DNA of 64,000 nt. It comes from Chthoniobacteraceae bacterium (lineage in GTDB: Bacteria; Verrucomicrobiota; Verrucomicrobiia; Chthoniobacterales; Chthoniobacteraceae). The notes beneath the pieces were generated by a model. The model was not told the origin of the DNA. It worked only from the letters and a program-made list of their open reading frames with translations, and did not search any database. The DNA lies in the NCBI GenBank assembly GCA_028293625.1, contig JAQGOL010000040.1, positions 1-64,000 on the forward strand. Direction: 5' to 3'. A program made the translations under genes and the position numbers. Position 1 is the first letter of the stretch, and the number at the start of each line of letters is the position of its first letter. Positions 24,817 to 33,176 of this stretch are shown piece by piece.

Positions 24817-24929
24817 CGGCGCCACGATGAAGCAGACCTTTCAAACTGAAAAGCAAAGATGCGGTCATCGTTTCTTCATCCGCAATGGATTGACGCTTTA
24901 ACAGAATGCTTCAAAGGTGGCTGGCGTTG

Positions 24930-27002
24930 ATGAAAACTGAAATTTCACGATTTTGCGAAGCGTCGCTTGAGAGCCTGAACGCGTTGCCGCCTGCCTTGGA
25001 TAACGCCGCGCTGCAAATGGAGAAAGCGGGCGAAGCTAAACTGCTTCAGAAGCCGCTTGCCGCGCTCAATGAACTGCGCGCCCGGTTGCGCTCATTGGTG
25101 GAAAAACTGGCGAGCCAGCAGGCTTACCTCCTGATCTTCGGCCCGCTCAAGAGTGGAAAATCAACGCTGATGAATGCGATCAGCGGCACGTATGTCAGCG
25201 AGGTCACATCGCTGCCGGGCTATCCATGCCTTGTTTATGTCAAAAACGGGGCGGCTCCCCGGTTTTCAGTCACCCGCTATAACGGCCGGGAAACGGTCTT
25301 TGCAGATGGAGTGGTGCTTAATGACATGGTGGCCGACAGCCATGTGGCGCTTGCCCAGCAGATTCGCGTCACCGAACTGCGAGGCGAACAGTTTGATCCG
25401 CGCACGCATTTTACCGAGGCGATCCGGCGCATTGACGTGCAGTTTCCTGTGCAAACCCTGGCTGAATCAAGCACGGTGCTCGTCGATACTCCCGGACTTT
25501 ATAGCCGGATGAACTTTGGCTATGATGTTTTAACCAAGGAATTTCGCGATAGCGCGGCCTGCGCGGTATTTGTGGTAAAAGCCGACAATCTTTTTCTCGA
25601 ACAGGTTTTCGCCGAGTTTAATCAGCTGCTTGGGCTCTTCAGCCGGATTTTCCTGGTCATCAATGTCGATTCGAGCAAACGGGATTTGCGCGCCGACGGG
25701 ACGCTTGCTCCCAGCCAGGAGAGCCAGCATCCCGAGCGGATTATTGACGCTTTCAAAACTCTCTCGATGGCCGGTCCTTTGCGCCAGGCTTATGAGGAAC
25801 AGCGGGTCCGGATTCATGCCGTCGATCTGCTGAGCGCCGCCTCCGTTATTCTGAGCCGTAACAACGAGAACGGACAGGCGGCTCCCGCTTCTGATATGAA
25901 ACAGGAGAGGGCATTTAACGGCTTCATGGCGGACCTGACCAATTATTTGAACAGCAGCGATTACACGCTTGAGTTCATCGGCGACACGCTGCGCCAGGGC
26001 CACACGCTTTGCATTGAGGCTTCCCAAATCGAGCAATCGCCAGAGCTCCGGGAACTGAAAGAAACCCAGCGCCGGCTCACCCAGGAGATGGCGCTCCTTG
26101 ATGACAAAATCGCAATCGTCGACCGGTTGCTGCGTGTCGACTGGACGGCCGGTTTTGACAAGGTGCGCGCCGAAAACGCGATTCAATGCAAGACGAGCTG
26201 CGCCTCCAGGACCGTTGAGCTTGCCAACAGCATGCGCCGGGGCGTGGATGACTGGTATGAGGTTAATGAAAGCCTCGGCACCCTCGCCGGACATCGCTGG
26301 AATCCGCTTTTGATTGCCGCGGGCCAGGCACTTGCCATCGAAAGTCAGGCCCGGCTCAAAACGCTGCTCAGCACCACGCTCGGCGGGGCGGAGCCGGCGG
26401 CCTTGGTAATGACGGACCTGTATGCGGTTGGATTTAACCTTGGGTCGGTGATCCCAGCCGCGGAACCTGCTTTGGATGAAATGGAGACGCTCGCCCCGTA
26501 TGAGCTCTGGATTGATGGCACGCTGGTTCCGGTCCGTAAACTGTTCTTGGACTGGCTCCTTTTCCGCAAGATTGCCTCGGTAAAACGCCGTCTTTTCGGC
26601 GAGAACCTCGAGCAACCGATTGAACCGGTTATCAAGCGAAAGCGCCTTCCTGAATTGAGCAAGGAAGTTCTGTTTGGGCTGATTGATGACAACCTTAAAA
26701 CCAAACTGCCCGCGTTGCCGTGCCAATATGCGGATCAGCTTGTCACTGCGTATGTGGAAAAATTTACCGCTGGCGTCATTGAGGGACTACGCCAGTTGCG
26801 CAAGGAGTTTGTGCACCAACGGGGAGAGCGCCAGACACCCTTCGACCTCAATACACTCGTTCTCAATTCCATCGAAGCGCTTACCACGCGTGCTTCCACG
26901 GTGCTCGGCGAACTTCGGGCGATGGCGCAAAACGAGGCGGGCGCGGCCGCAAAACGGGTGGAACCGGTCGTGGCGCCCACCTCCTCGATCCCGGCAATGT
27001 AA
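24930..27002 (+). CDS. Dynamin-like GTPase
   Basis: About 690 residues from the ATG at 24930, which has AGGTGG nine bases upstream; an ATG at 24906 is in frame but lacks such a site. G1 is GPLKSGKST (near residue 70) in YLLIFGPLKSGKSTLMNAIS. A Thr/Ser-rich switch I region follows (TSLPGYPCLVY). G3 is DTPGLYSRMNFG near 185, and G4 is probably VINVDSSK. The C-terminal two thirds are helical with coiled-coil character (ELRELKETQRRLTQEMALLD), as expected for the stalk of bacterial dynamin-like proteins. No strong transmembrane hairpin is evident. Such proteins remodel or protect membranes. Only one dynamin gene is present, whereas they often come in pairs. It is followed after 19 bases by rpiB. 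Confidence 0.85.
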   Translation: MKTEISRFCEASLESLNALPPALDNAALQMEKAGEAKLLQKPLAALNELRARLRSLVEKLASQQAYLLIFGPLKSGKSTLMNAISGTYVSEVTSLPGYPCLVYVKNGAAPRFSVTRYNGRETVFADGVVLNDMVADSHVALAQQIRVTELRGEQFDPRTHFTEAIRRIDVQFPVQTLAESSTVLVDTPGLYSRMNFGYDVLTKEFRDSAACAVFVVKADNLFLEQVFAEFNQLLGLFSRIFLVINVDSSKRDLRADGTLAPSQESQHPERIIDAFKTLSMAGPLRQAYEEQRVRIHAVDLLSAASVILSRNNENGQAAPASDMKQERAFNGFMADLTNYLNSSDYTLEFIGDTLRQGHTLCIEASQIEQSPELRELKETQRRLTQEMALLDDKIAIVDRLLRVDWTAGFDKVRAENAIQCKTSCASRTVELANSMRRGVDDWYEVNESLGTLAGHRWNPLLIAAGQALAIESQARLKTLLSTTLGGAEPAALVMTDLYAVGFNLGSVIPAAEPALDEMETLAPYELWIDGTLVPVRKLFLDWLLFRKIASVKRRLFGENLEQPIEPVIKRKRLPELSKEVLFGLIDDNLKTKLPALPCQYADQLVTAYVEKFTAGVIEGLRQLRKEFVHQRGERQTPFDLNTLVLNSIEALTTRASTVLGELRAMAQNEAGAAAKRVEPVVAPTSSIPAM

Positions 27003-28415: not shown

Positions 28416-29321
28416 ATGGAGAACGCAATTGAGCCGGTGTGCGCGTCGGTGCTGGAAGTGCGCGGGTTGCGGCGGCATTTCGGGAAAGTGAGCGCGGTTG
28501 ATGGTGTGGATCTCACGGTGCGGGAAGGGGAGATCTATGGGTTTCTGGGAATCAACGGAGCGGGCAAGACGACCACGATCCGGATCCTCATGGGGATTAT
28601 CGCGGCCGAAGCGGGCACAATCACGCTTTTGGGGGAAACCACGCGACGCACTTCCATCGCGCAGAAACAGCGGATTGGTTACGTTTCGCAGGAGCAGAAT
28701 TTCTATCCCTGGATGACCTGCCGCGCTTTGGGGCGCTTTGTCGGTTCGTTTTATCCGACCTGGGAGCAGGGTGAGTTTGACCGGCTCCTCGGCGTCTTTG
28801 ATCTTCCAGAGAACCGCCGCGTCTCCGATTTATCCGGCGGCATGCGGGCCAAGCTGGCCTTGGCACTGGCACTGGCGCCGCGTCCCGCGGTGCTGATTCT
28901 TGATGAGCCAACCGCCGGTCTCGATCCGGTGGCGCGCCGTGAGTTTATGCAGATCATTGTCGCCCAAGCCAGGCAGCACGGGCGCACGACATTTTTCTCT
29001 TCGCATTTGATTGACGAGGTGGAGCGTTGCGCCGACCGGGTCGGCATTCTTCACCAGGGGAAGATGCGATTTGAAGGCGCGCTTGACGAATTGCGCGAAC
29101 GCGTGCGGCGGGTGCGGATGCCCGCGGGCACCGTATTTGAAGCGCCTCCGCACTTTGAAGTCTGGCGTGACGAAGAGTTTGATGGAACACGCACGCTCGC
29201 TCTCAGCGCGGACCCGGCCGTCTGGCGGGGGTTGGAAATACCGCCCGAAGTCGAAGTGACGGTGATGGGCCTTGAAGATATTTTCATCGCCTGCGTCGGC
29301 TCGCGAATCGTACGCGTATGA
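28416..29321 (+). CDS. ABC transporter ATP-binding protein
   Basis: 301 residues, single nucleotide-binding domain of the ABC-2 (CcmA/NatA) export type. Walker A is GINGAGKTTT, the Q loop is YVSQEQNFYPW, the signature is LSGGMRAKLALALAL, Walker B is AVLILDEPTAGLDP, and the H-loop is SSHLIDEVE. A C-terminal extension of about 80 residues ends in VMGLEDIFIACV, usual for this subfamily. It is the first gene of a three-gene unit; the stop overlaps the next ATG by four bases. The partners are two membrane proteins with large peptidase-like C-termini. The transported substrate is unknown. Confidence 0.95.
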   Translation: MENAIEPVCASVLEVRGLRRHFGKVSAVDGVDLTVREGEIYGFLGINGAGKTTTIRILMGIIAAEAGTITLLGETTRRTSIAQKQRIGYVSQEQNFYPWMTCRALGRFVGSFYPTWEQGEFDRLLGVFDLPENRRVSDLSGGMRAKLALALALAPRPAVLILDEPTAGLDPVARREFMQIIVAQARQHGRTTFFSSHLIDEVERCADRVGILHQGKMRFEGALDELRERVRRVRMPAGTVFEAPPHFEVWRDEEFDGTRTLALSADPAVWRGLEIPPEVEVTVMGLEDIFIACVGSRIVRV

Positions 29322-30868
29322 TCCGCGGATTGCTTGAAAAAGAACTCCGCCAGCACAGCCTGACGTTTTTCTTTCTGATTTTGACGCTGGCAGGCGGACT
29401 GACGCTGATCATGGGCAACCGCGTCGTGCATCTGTCGGGGGGAACGACGCTTTTTGCGCTCCAGATCCTGCATTACACCTTTGTGCCGATGGCTTGTTTT
29501 GTCCTGGGCCAGGTGCTGATCGCCATTGAATTTCGCCAGAAAACCCAGCTTTTTCTCGAAGGTCTGCCGCTGCCGCGCTGGCGCATGATTGCAGTCAAAT
29601 ACGTGCTCGGGCTAACGCTCATGCTGACAGCTGTCGGACTGGTGCTCGCATTGGCTGTGTGGAAAGGACGGGGAAGCGATGCGATGACTGGACGGTTTCT
29701 ACTGGCACTCGTCCTGCGCTCCGGGTTCTGGAGCTGGTTTATCTATAATCTGTTTTTCGCGTTCGCGTTCCTGGGCCGCTACCGACTTCTCTTTTTTGTG
29801 ATCGGATTAATCGGGTGGGCAGCGCTTTCCGAGGCAGATATTTCGCTCGCCAATTTTGCTCCGTTTCAGCTCATCGGTAGCCGGTTTTCCTACGAGCGGC
29901 ATGTGATTCCCACTCGGGACATCGTGCTTACTGGCGGATTCGCAGTTCTCCTCCTGGGATTCGGCTTTTTTCTCGGGCTCGTTCGCGATGCCAGCCTCGC
30001 CACGATGTTATCTGAGAAGATGTCATACCGCGAAAAGATGACGATCAGCTTTCTCGCGTTTGGAGCGGTGATGATTTTTGGGATGAACGTGGAGCGACTC
30101 AAACGTCTGGCGCCAGTGCAAATTCCCGGTGCGATTGAAGTGCTGCAAGGCGGGATCCGAGTGGGGGTATCGGCGGCGGTCGACACGCCCACTCCTGAGG
30201 AGGAAGCGGCGATTGCCTCGACAGCGGCACGGCTTGGCAGGGAGCTTTCCGAATTGGCGGCTTATCTGCATTGCGAGACGATGCCGCCGCTGTTTGTGGT
30301 GCACCGCCGCGATCTGGCCGAGGGGCTTTTTGAGAATGGCGCCCTTGAGTTTAAGCAAGGGCTGATGGTACGGGTGAATCTGACCGCCAAGGAGTTCAAA
30401 CCCGATCTGTTGCTGAGATGGATCGTGCGCGAGGAGCTGCTTGTTAAAAGCCAGAAACGCCTGGAGTTGGAGCGCAATGCCTGGGTGTTGGATGGATTTA
30501 CTGAATGGTGGCCAAAACGCGGGATATCCGCTCTTCAGATTGCCGAGGAAATAAAAACTGTTCCGTCGGATTTCTCCGCACCCGATCTGACGGACTGGTT
30601 GTCGTTTCGGAAACGAGCCGGTGAAGAAAAGGCGCGGAGTCTGGCGTGCACGGCAGTGCGATTGCTCGGGACGCTGCACGGGGAGGAAACGCGCCGGACT
30701 TTTCTCGCATCGGTTTTGGGGCACGTGGTGCAGAAGGATGCCAGAGCCTGGCTGCGTGAGACATGGAGCCCGGTATCGAGCCGGTTCAGGGCGGCAGCGG
30801 GAATCAGCCTTGAAGCCTTTGTTGCTGAATTGCACACGGCGCTCAATGCAGCCGTCGAAAAAACATGA
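29318..30868 (+). CDS. ABC-2-like membrane protein with degenerate peptidase-like C-terminal domain
   Basis: 516 residues. The first 255 hold about six or seven membrane segments (LTFFFLILTLAGGLTLIMG, FVPMACFVLGQVLIAIEF, LLFFVIGLIGWAALS, MTISFLAFGAVMIFGM). The remaining 260 residues are soluble. Compared with the next gene's product, they have the same layout, but where that protein has HETTH this one reads R371-E-E-L-L. Where that one has the third ligand in HEALATF, this one reads LDGFTEWW. Zinc binding and catalysis are therefore unlikely. The comparison is by eye. The gene is joined at both ends by ATGA overlaps, implying equimolar production with the ATPase and the second membrane protein. 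Confidence 0.8.
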   Translation: MIRGLLEKELRQHSLTFFFLILTLAGGLTLIMGNRVVHLSGGTTLFALQILHYTFVPMACFVLGQVLIAIEFRQKTQLFLEGLPLPRWRMIAVKYVLGLTLMLTAVGLVLALAVWKGRGSDAMTGRFLLALVLRSGFWSWFIYNLFFAFAFLGRYRLLFFVIGLIGWAALSEADISLANFAPFQLIGSRFSYERHVIPTRDIVLTGGFAVLLLGFGFFLGLVRDASLATMLSEKMSYREKMTISFLAFGAVMIFGMNVERLKRLAPVQIPGAIEVLQGGIRVGVSAAVDTPTPEEEAAIASTAARLGRELSELAAYLHCETMPPLFVVHRRDLAEGLFENGALEFKQGLMVRVNLTAKEFKPDLLLRWIVREELLVKSQKRLELERNAWVLDGFTEWWPKRGISALQIAEEIKTVPSDFSAPDLTDWLSFRKRAGEEKARSLACTAVRLLGTLHGEETRRTFLASVLGHVVQKDARAWLRETWSPVSSRFRAAAGISLEAFVAELHTALNAAVEKT

Positions 30869-32736
30869 TCGCCTTGTTACGAAAGGAACTGCGCGCGCTT
30901 TTTCCGCTGGCTCTTCTGATTTTCGGGTTTGTGGGTGCGCTTATTCTTGGGGATCTCTTCACGGAATTTCCCGATGCGCAGCGGCTTTGCGCCCGTTGCT
31001 GGATCGACAATTCCCGCAGCTCGATGGTCGTGTTTATCCTGCTATTTGGAATCATCACAGGATCCGGTTTGCTGACCGGAGAAAGCGCGCGCGGGACGCT
31101 TGGATTTCTTGATGCATTGCCGGTTTCACGCAGCCGCATCTTCTTCGCCAAAATGATCGCGGCTTCACTCGTCCTCGCGATGCTGCCGATCCTCGGTTGG
31201 GTTGATGACGCAATACTCGGTTTGCTTTCCCTGCAATCGACGGATGCCGTGTTCCCGTGGAATTTTATTGGCCTCGAGTTTTTACTCGAAATGGTCGCGA
31301 TCGGCTACGTCCTTGCCCTGGCCGCCGCATTCTCAATGACACGGCAATGGTTCGCGCTGGTGGTCGGGGTGGTATTTTGGATTTTTCTTTGGGCGCGTGC
31401 CCGTGGGATTGGGTGGATAGGGTTGTTTGATCCAAACGAATTACTTTCCCCGGGCATTGATGGCGCATCGGTGCGGATCCCGTGGCGTCATTTGGCGGCG
31501 CACTTGTCGGTGGGAATTGCGGCGCTTTTCCTTGCGTGGCTTGGGTTTCTTGCGATGGGCGATCGCACCCAGCACGCCTTCGATAAACTGAGCCGCAACC
31601 GTTTTGTGCGGCTGCTCCATTTCCTGCGACTTGGAATCGTGCCCGTGGTTTGGTTTGCCGCGTTAAATCAATGCGACAACCATTCCGCCCCGGATCCAAA
31701 GGCGGCTCGTCCCGCCGCCGAAAGCGCTTTTGCGTCCGCAGAGACGAAACGGTATGAGTTTTTGTTCAGGGAAAGCCAGCGTGCGAACGCGCAGGCGTTG
31801 ATCGCAGAAGCCGACGCGGTGCACGACACCGTCACCCGATTTCTTCGTGCCAAGGCGACTCCGTCGCGGATTGTTGTCGATCTTGCCAGCCCCGTCGTTG
31901 AACACGCGGCAGGGCAGGCGAACTGGACTAAAATTCGGATCCCGCTTGGCCAGGGCGTTCCGATTGCCAGACTCAAATCACTGCTGGCTCATGAAACAAC
32001 TCACGTTTACATCGAGCAGTTGAGCGACGGCGCGATGGGACGTTTTTTTGCGAGTACCCAATTTTTTCACGAAGCACTCGCGACATTTGTTCAGGAGCGG
32101 TTTTTTGGTTCGGAAACCGATCGAACCGCATTGCGTCGTGCGGGTGCGGCGGCAACCGCGCGTGGCAAGGTTTCCTTTGAAACGCTTGCCAGTAACCAGA
32201 CGTTGGGAGCCAGTCGCGATCCGTTTCTGGTTTATCCACTCGGGGAAGTTTTCTGCCGTGCGCTGGTAAGGAGTTATGGGAAACGAGCGCCATCCAAAAT
32301 TCTGAAGGCGCTTGCCCGTAAGAATGCACCGTCCAGTTTGAGCGGAGCACCGCTTTGGCGCGATGCGATGCAATCGTGCGGCTACAATTTGGATCGCGTT
32401 ATTGGCGCCTACAATGGTGAACTGGCGCTCGCGATGAAGGAAGAGGCGGACTTCATCGCGCAGATTCCTGTGCTGACGGCGCATGTGGAACTGGAAGGCG
32501 ATCAGATTTTGATTCGCACGCAACACGCCTCCAAGGCGCCCGGGGAGATGCTTTGCCTGGTCCGGATCAATACGGGGCTCAGTGAAGAGCAACAGAGCGT
32601 CTACGCTGATAAGGAGGGCGTTTTCCGAGTGCCGCGCGCCCGGTCGTCCGGCTCCGTTTTCCGTTATCTGCTTGGATGGAAGATCGAGGGAATGGAGTGG
32701 CCGATCTTTGAACCGTGGAGTGAAACCACGCTTTGA
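30865..32736 (+). CDS. ABC-2-like membrane protein fused to a gluzincin-type metallopeptidase domain
   Basis: 623 residues. The N-terminal 260 hold about six or seven membrane segments (LALLIFGFVGALILGDLF, VVFILLFGIITGSGLLTGES, LVVGVVFWIFLWARA, VGIAALFLAWLGFLAMG), with GESARGTLGFLDALPVSR as in ABC-2 permeases. The C-terminal half carries a zinc protease signature, H376-E-T-T-H380 in SLLAHETTHVYIEQL. A plausible third ligand is E403, in FFHEALATF, 22 residues on, the gluzincin (peptidase MA clan) layout. Because the domain follows a membrane segment, it may face outward; this is not proven. It overlaps the preceding gene by ATGA. A combined export-and-cleavage unit is inferred. Confidence 0.85.
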   Translation: MIALLRKELRALFPLALLIFGFVGALILGDLFTEFPDAQRLCARCWIDNSRSSMVVFILLFGIITGSGLLTGESARGTLGFLDALPVSRSRIFFAKMIAASLVLAMLPILGWVDDAILGLLSLQSTDAVFPWNFIGLEFLLEMVAIGYVLALAAAFSMTRQWFALVVGVVFWIFLWARARGIGWIGLFDPNELLSPGIDGASVRIPWRHLAAHLSVGIAALFLAWLGFLAMGDRTQHAFDKLSRNRFVRLLHFLRLGIVPVVWFAALNQCDNHSAPDPKAARPAAESAFASAETKRYEFLFRESQRANAQALIAEADAVHDTVTRFLRAKATPSRIVVDLASPVVEHAAGQANWTKIRIPLGQGVPIARLKSLLAHETTHVYIEQLSDGAMGRFFASTQFFHEALATFVQERFFGSETDRTALRRAGAAATARGKVSFETLASNQTLGASRDPFLVYPLGEVFCRALVRSYGKRAPSKILKALARKNAPSSLSGAPLWRDAMQSCGYNLDRVIGAYNGELALAMKEEADFIAQIPVLTAHVELEGDQILIRTQHASKAPGEMLCLVRINTGLSEEQQSVYADKEGVFRVPRARSSGSVFRYLLGWKIEGMEWPIFEPWSETTL

Positions 32737-32738
32737 CT

Positions 32739-33176
32739 TCACTCCACTTTGGTCGCTTCCACCCTCAGCAGGTAAATCTCAAGCTCGCTGGGCAACGTGG
32801 AAGTTTTGTGCACGGCTAAGAGGATCCGTTCACCATTATGCAGCCGCAATGTTGTCGTCGTTTTTGTGGTCTCGAACTCGGGCTGCTCCACGACAACCTT
32901 GCGCTCGTCTCCGGGTTTTTCGAGGCTTATTTTGTTAAACCCCTTCAACCTGACGCGTTGCACGGCAACAGCGAATTGGATGAGCTTGCCCTCCTCAACG
33001 ACGGCCGGATCGACTTCCAGTGTGACCCCCGTGTTGCGCACTTCAAATTGCACGGGCGTCGCTTCAAAAATTGTCGCGTCGACATTGAGTTTGCCCGCAT
33101 CCGGTTCATCCGATTTGGGTGCAACCGTTCGCGGACTGAATTCCGTGGCGTAACGGAGTTCGTCAATGGACTCCAT
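32739..33176 (-). CDS. Small protein resembling a secretin-type beta segment
   Basis: 145 residues with no signal peptide. The central part (TGVTLEVDPAVVEEGKLIQF) followed by TTTLRLHNGERILLAVHK resembles, in pattern, the beta-lip region of secretin/GspD-type proteins (a 'G..L.v.P.V..dg..v.l' strand pair, then 'T.v.v.dGet..lgG'). On its own it is far too short to form a secretin channel. It could be a stand-alone domain or an unrelated beta-sandwich. It converges with the ABC/peptidase gene, leaving two bases between the stops. Confidence 0.55.
   Translation of the reverse strand: MESIDELRYATEFSPRTVAPKSDEPDAGKLNVDATIFEATPVQFEVRNTGVTLEVDPAVVEEGKLIQFAVAVQRVRLKGFNKISLEKPGDERKVVVEQPEFETTKTTTTLRLHNGERILLAVHKTSTLPSELEIYLLRVEATKVE

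Follow-up and report, generated by a model that had tools for sequence, protein, structure and literature searches.

What could an ABC ATPase do together with two membrane subunits that both carry a peptidase-like half, one with an intact active-site pattern and one without? The question is raised by three genes in a 64,000-nucleotide stretch of a Chthoniobacteraceae genome (referred to below, at its full length, as the window). The features of this trio are listed in Table 1. The initial annotation had described a three-gene unit with overlapping reading frames, and the window agreed with it: all three genes run in the same direction and share 4 bases at both joins. Likewise, genes 2 and 3 were each divided into a membrane half and a soluble one, and the reported motifs were present (HETTH at 376-380 and E403 within FHEALAT of gene 3; REELL at 371-375 and LDGFTEW at 391-397 of gene 2).

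Table 1. Positions in the window of the three genes, their soluble halves and the HETTH codons.
Feature	Coordinates	Strand	Basis
Gene 1, ABC ATPase, 301 aa	28416..29321	+	PF00005 match and motifs
Gene 2 (516 aa), membrane subunit; peptidase-like half degenerate	29318..30868	+	Profile homology to gene 3
Gene 2 soluble half, residues 266-516, predicted pseudopeptidase	30113..30865	+	hhalign match with the soluble half of gene 3
Gene 3 (623 aa), membrane subunit; peptidase-like half intact	30865..32736	+	PF12679 match
Gene 3 soluble half, residues 271-623, gluzincin-like; H376, E377, H380, E403, Y457	31675..32733	+	Invariance, hhalign
HETTH codons, gene 3 residues 376-380	31990..32004	+	Computed from gene start 30865

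The search for the same gene order in other genomes returned a conserved arrangement. Complete trios were present at nine loci (the window, L001, L007, L008, L009, L046, L047, L054 and L055), all of them inside the class of the window, and both the direction and the order (ATPase, degenerate subunit, intact subunit) agreed in all nine. With the starts chosen, four-base overlaps joined genes 1 and 2 in seven trios and genes 2 and 3 in six. The window copy of gene 1 matched PF00005 in Pfam with 102.9 bits against a cut-off of 25, and it contained a Walker A motif (GINGAGKT), a signature (LSGGM), a Walker B motif (VLILDEP) and an H-loop (SSHL). These motifs were intact in the nine orthologues, with the signature reading LSGGT in one. 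The three genes may well be parts of one membrane machine.

The active site of gene 3

Eight residues of the gene 3 soluble half (H376, E377, H380, H402, E403, Y457, P458 and G460) were invariant in the nine complete trios, and the patterns HE[TI]xH and HE[AG] were found in every one. Because the residues of the candidate zinc site did not vary across the nine trios, the HETTH/E403 pattern is beyond chance.

Profiles of the soluble halves, built from nine sequences each, were compared by hhalign with 17 M1 segments from related genomes and with a Peptidase_MA_2 profile of 32 reading frames, a few of which are repeated because some loci overlap. E-values in these comparisons refer to single pairs, and the scores were set against 100 column shuffles. 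Gene 3 aligned with M1 at a probability of 95.5% over 213 columns (score 69.3; best of 100 shuffles 25.3) and with Peptidase_MA_2 at 95.0% over 224 columns (score 67.2; best of 100 shuffles 22.5). Reversed profiles and an ATPase profile, used as controls, gave a probability of at most 1.2%. The HExxH motif and the distal glutamate of gene 3 were in register with those of both families, which bears out the earlier description of this half as gluzincin-like. In the M1 alignment, Y457-x-x-G460 fell on TYxKG and GQANW on GMENW. In M1 enzymes the tyrosine of the Tyr-x-x-Gly motif is the proton donor and the glutamate of GxMEN anchors the substrate amine. We take Y457 to be the candidate proton-donor tyrosine of gene 3. 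The position of the GxMEN glutamate was occupied by A or T in all nine gene 3 proteins, and 22 residues separated H380 from E403, compared with 18 in M1 proteins of related genomes.

No peptidase family was above its cut-off for the window trio in Pfam or NCBIfam, and Pfam peptidase models passed theirs in none of the nine gene 3 proteins, a result that we count against our main reading. The nearest miss was M48 in L001, at 18.8 bits against 20.3. The sub-threshold Pfam matches of single gene 3 proteins, namely M48 (best E 0.0015), SprT (0.053), DUF1570 (0.075) and M1 (0.12), point mostly to zinc peptidases, and none of them amounts to a family assignment. Among the window proteins, NCBIfam gave a flagellinolysin match (0.0071) far under its cut-off. 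PF01433 did not exceed its cut-off in any of the nine gene 3 proteins and appeared once (12.4 bits against 27.7); PF13485 was absent from the matches of all nine at E up to 0.5, and no gene of the trio matched a C39 family in Pfam at E up to 1. A search of the PDB with the soluble profile returned chance ribosomal matches only, and these were rejected.

As no Pfam peptidase cut-off was passed, the gene 3 half is, judging from its profile alignments, a divergent gluzincin close to both M1 and Peptidase_MA_2, and we file it in neither family. The missing amine-binding glutamate makes an exopeptidase activity of the M1 type unlikely, and the half is perhaps more likely to be an endopeptidase than an aminopeptidase. 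It is a putative zinc metallopeptidase that would bind zinc and cut polypeptides.

The degenerate soluble half of gene 2

Gene 2 had been read as a catalytically dead copy. Its description as a degenerate copy was supported, with HExxH absent from the whole gene 2 protein in all nine trios and with a soluble half homologous to that of gene 3 whose sites lie in register. The profile alignment refined this reading. Opposite H376, six proteins had R and the rest had E, F or G, so that histidine was never found there, and H380 faced a gap. A glutamate was retained opposite E377 in six of the nine, and an aspartate stood opposite E403 in all nine. Tyrosine was never found opposite Y457. Each of the nine trios thus had one paralogue with and one paralogue without the catalytic residues.

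The soluble halves of genes 3 and 2 aligned at a probability of 80.4% with nine sequences (score 47.5; best of 100 shuffles 23.6), and a chance likeness was ruled out, since none of the 100 shuffles reached the score. Three results are counted against this: with five sequences the domain-only probability was 12%; the score of gene 2 against Peptidase_MA_2 did not exceed that of the best shuffle, and 1 of 100 shuffles reached it; and its match to M1 was weak (2.3%, 0 of 100 shuffles reaching the score).

The gene 2 half had invariant residues of its own (P270, L317, P323, R330, D332, G348, N354, W389, D392, G393, W398, W427, G435, A439 and G495), and the mean fraction of the top residue was 0.53 (221 columns), compared with 0.54 (332 columns) for gene 3. 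Residues of its own and a conservation equal to that of gene 3 argue for a maintained pseudoenzyme rather than debris. A freshly decaying copy was ruled out by the identical loss in nine of nine trios and by the conserved half.

In two divergent trios gene 2 was longer, with 640 residues in L046 (L046:3019-4941) and 626 in L047 (L047:3879-5759), against 515-528 residues in the other seven trios. The 110-125 extra residues form a tail that by eye resembles the C-terminal part of gene 3, which suggests that the two subunits began as equal copies and that gene 2 was shortened afterwards.

Membrane halves and predicted topology

The membrane half of gene 3 matched PF12679 in the window copy (36.5 bits against a cut-off of 27.2), and an ABC2 model was above its Pfam cut-off in seven of the nine orthologues. 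For gene 2 the Pfam ABC2 models were below cut-off in all nine, the best being 26.9 against 27 in L046. Full-length profiles of genes 2 and 3, from five orthologues each, aligned at a probability of 96% (E 3e-9) over 485 columns, with HETTH opposite REELL and HEALAT opposite LDGFTE. In the PDB, the gene 3 profile matched the permease subunit NosY best (E 0.0016). This match, to a chain of 276 residues, covered the membrane half and excluded the soluble half; it is the membrane half that gene 3 has in common with NosY and other ABC-2 permeases.

Both subunits of the window showed seven membrane segments by hydropathy. Across five orthologues the number ranged from 6 to 8 and was not always 7, which we count against the main reading; some of the extra segments lay inside the soluble half. 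The loop preceding the seventh segment contained 2 to 6 lysines and arginines. ABC-2 subunits usually have six helices with the N terminus inside, and a seventh helix added to this arrangement would place what follows on the other side. From these segments, the soluble halves of genes 2 and 3 are probably outside the cytoplasm. A location of HETTH inside a membrane helix was rejected, as the 19-residue hydropathy mean at the site was -0.21.

AlphaFold models made from two-sequence alignments (window and L001) had mean pLDDT values of 44.6 and 37.9, a very low confidence that is also counted against the main reading. When the first of these low-confidence models was submitted to Foldseek, immune-receptor and MHC chains made up most of the matches; aminopeptidase N appeared at ranks 13 and 18 (E 0.02-0.03). 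As the model was poor, this result was not used for any conclusion.

Proposed mechanism

We propose that the trio encodes an exporter or an ATP-driven extractor coupled to a heterodimer of a protease and a pseudoprotease, and we regard this as about evenly balanced between right and wrong. The ATPase, presumably in two copies as is general in ABC biology, would drive a heterodimer of the two ABC-2-type subunits. In each subunit the transporter helices would be followed by the seventh membrane segment and then by a gluzincin-like half outside the cytoplasm. The gene 3 half would cut, by means of HExxH, the third-ligand glutamate and the candidate proton-donor tyrosine. The gene 2 half would be an old pseudopeptidase under selection, probably docking the substrate or shaping the active subunit. 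Most likely, the ATPase would export or extract a polypeptide, and the pair would recognise it and cut it on the opposite face of the membrane. We count in favour of this proposal the intact ATPase motifs, the invariant catalytic residues of gene 3 in register with both families, the degenerate yet equally conserved half of gene 2, the restriction of gene 2 to genomes with a full-length gene 3, the correlated identities of genes 2 and 3, the four-base overlaps and the replaced GxMEN glutamate. The interpretation in the initial annotation is supported in part, namely in the homology of the two halves, the gluzincin-like and degenerate sites and the conserved gene order.

A more specific form of this proposal is put forward tentatively and with more doubt than confidence. 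It describes a previously undescribed ABC machine that would use ATP to pass a polypeptide across the membrane, or pull it from there, to an endoprotease outside the cytoplasm that consists of a live and a dead M1-like domain in permanent pairing. The dead domain would predate the split between all the copies sampled and would be the substrate receptor.

Genes flanking the trio

No shared neighbour that could be a linked substrate gene was found among 837 frames of at least 50 codons flanking the nine trios, the flanks being short for L001, L007 and L008. Five matches between loci were obtained, each linking just two loci. Since no neighbour family occurred in more than two loci, the gene for the substrate probably lies elsewhere, or the substrate is a general one.

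A lack of any substrate gene beside the trio would also fit if nothing passed through the subunits, and ATP hydrolysis instead moved or opened the outside pair or pulled membrane proteins into it. The NosDFY complex acts by mechanical coupling, and of the solved structures NosY is closest to the gene 3 profile; however, the match is limited to the membrane half, where it reflects common ABC-2 ancestry and says nothing on function. We consider such mechanical transmission unlikely, and retain the exporter or extractor as the preferred explanation.

Some flanking frames were observed besides. A dynamin-family GTPase gene (24906-27002, + strand; PF00350, E 7e-8, over its cut-off) lies close upstream of the trio in the window, with other genes between. 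A short convergent frame (32739-33176, - strand) adjoins the end of gene 3; it has a secretin-like match just below the cut-off (26.9 bits against 27.5) and could be part of a broken secretin gene. Two short frames per locus matched between L009:1448-2087 and L046:936-1539 at 41-45% identity. Those of L009 lie far from the trio, and the frames are possibly a mobile or repeated element.

Distribution and inheritance

Matching genomes were few at each level sampled. In the order of the window 5 of 213 genomes matched with the window protein as query, one of them (G003) by a remnant only, and profile searches matched 5 of 384 genomes in the class sample and, in a different order of that class, 5 of 196. 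The phylum sample, searched at E 1e-10 with few candidates scored per genome, returned only the window's own genome among 387. This patchy distribution implies that the trio is not essential, and we count it, like the lack of a shared neighbour, against the main reading. Gene 2 was confined to the four genomes with a full-length gene 3 when 54 relatives were searched with both profiles. No relatives of gene 3 were found in viral contigs and plasmids.

Pairwise identities were correlated between genes 2 and 3 (0.92), genes 1 and 2 (0.84) and genes 1 and 3 (0.73). The L001 locus belongs to the Verrucomicrobiia metagenome-assembled genome SJ186, and genome G601 of the class sample is probably the same, by matching contig coordinates. 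The window and L001, which would be from another family if G601 is L001, were 51% identical in gene 2 and 49% in gene 3; the window and L009, from a genome of the same family (G030), were 34% and 32% identical. These pairwise identities, at odds with kinship, hint at horizontal transfer or old paralogues.

The contig of G825 (L053) begins within gene 3 and was excluded from the nine-locus counts; its gene 3 has HETTH and HEGL. G003, a genome in the genus of the window, retained no more of gene 3 than 45-77 residues of its C-terminal end (L010:9154-9405, - strand; also L015) and yielded no gene 2; apparently the operon was lost there. In G009 (L016/L017) a 537-residue open frame gave a weak 58-residue match (E 8.6e-4), which involved the beginning of the soluble profile of gene 3 and lay outside its HExxH region.

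A patchy occurrence, identities in conflict with kinship and a remnant in a congener would suit a complex for defence or detoxification, which recognises incoming peptides, antimicrobial ones for example, and destroys or expels them. However, patchiness is compatible with many functions, and no sensor or regulator family was common to the loci, and we judge such a role less likely still than mechanical transmission. Least likely of all, the gluzincin-like halves might both be non-proteolytic binding domains, the intact site being structural or having another role, as the missing M1 amine-binding glutamate and the lack of any peptidase cut-off passed would allow, but in nine of nine trios every candidate zinc ligand is invariant, as are the catalytic glutamate and the tyrosine proposed as proton donor, which is the pattern expected if the enzyme works.

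Comparison with known systems

The preferred reading, a transporter coupled to a live and dead protease pair, has parallels of several kinds. C39 domains are cysteine peptidases on the cytoplasmic side of the membrane. The trio differs from them in having a gluzincin, probably outside the cytoplasm, with live and dead versions within one operon. PCATs are ABC exporters with an active fused C39 peptidase domain (PMC6363468), and the C39-like domain of HlyB has no peptidase activity yet is essential for secretion through substrate contact (PMC11026475). The likeness to C39 PCAT/AMS transporters and to HlyB lies in the live or dead peptidase domain on an ABC exporter (PMC6363468, PMC11026475). 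In these exporters the C39 domain is N-terminal and in one polypeptide with the ATPase (PMC11026475, PMC6363468), whereas in the trio the domains are C-terminal and on two separate membrane subunits. Live and dead peptidase domains on ABC transporters are therefore already known through C39, and the arrangement of the trio did not turn up in searches of open-licence PMC papers. As only such papers were covered, the lack of a description is weak evidence of absence.

If the proposal is true, the trio would represent a second, chemically unrelated route to a protease in an ABC transporter, probably on the opposite side of the membrane from C39, in which recognition by the dead domain and cutting by the live domain are split between the two halves of one pump. 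Being compact and conserved, the pair would allow the contribution of a pseudoenzyme to be tested cleanly.

AlbE and AlbF are a pair of M16 peptidases, one subunit active and one inactive, beside an ABC exporter. They resemble the trio in combining an active and an inactive peptidase subunit and differ in the type of peptidase and in not being fused to the transporter. M1 aminopeptidases share with gene 3 the HExxH motif, the distal glutamate and Tyr-x-x-Gly in register, and are set apart by the spacing (18 against 22), by the GxMEN glutamate that gene 3 lacks and by the sub-cut-off PF01433 score of gene 3. ABC permease/M1 fusion protein is a name in public annotation. M1 proteins were present in 22 of 38 relatives, and L042, the single fusion candidate examined among the relatives, was not a fusion. 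Peptidase_MA_2 (PF13485) proteins of the same bacterial family have an HExxH and a distal glutamate like those of gene 3, and those aligned differ from it as stand-alone frames of less than 450 residues. Paired gluzincin-like genes were also seen in a second setting: in the relatives, where only HExxH-bearing frames were kept, closely spaced pairs of Peptidase_MA_2 frames were observed at L059, L062, L067, L075, L079 and L081.
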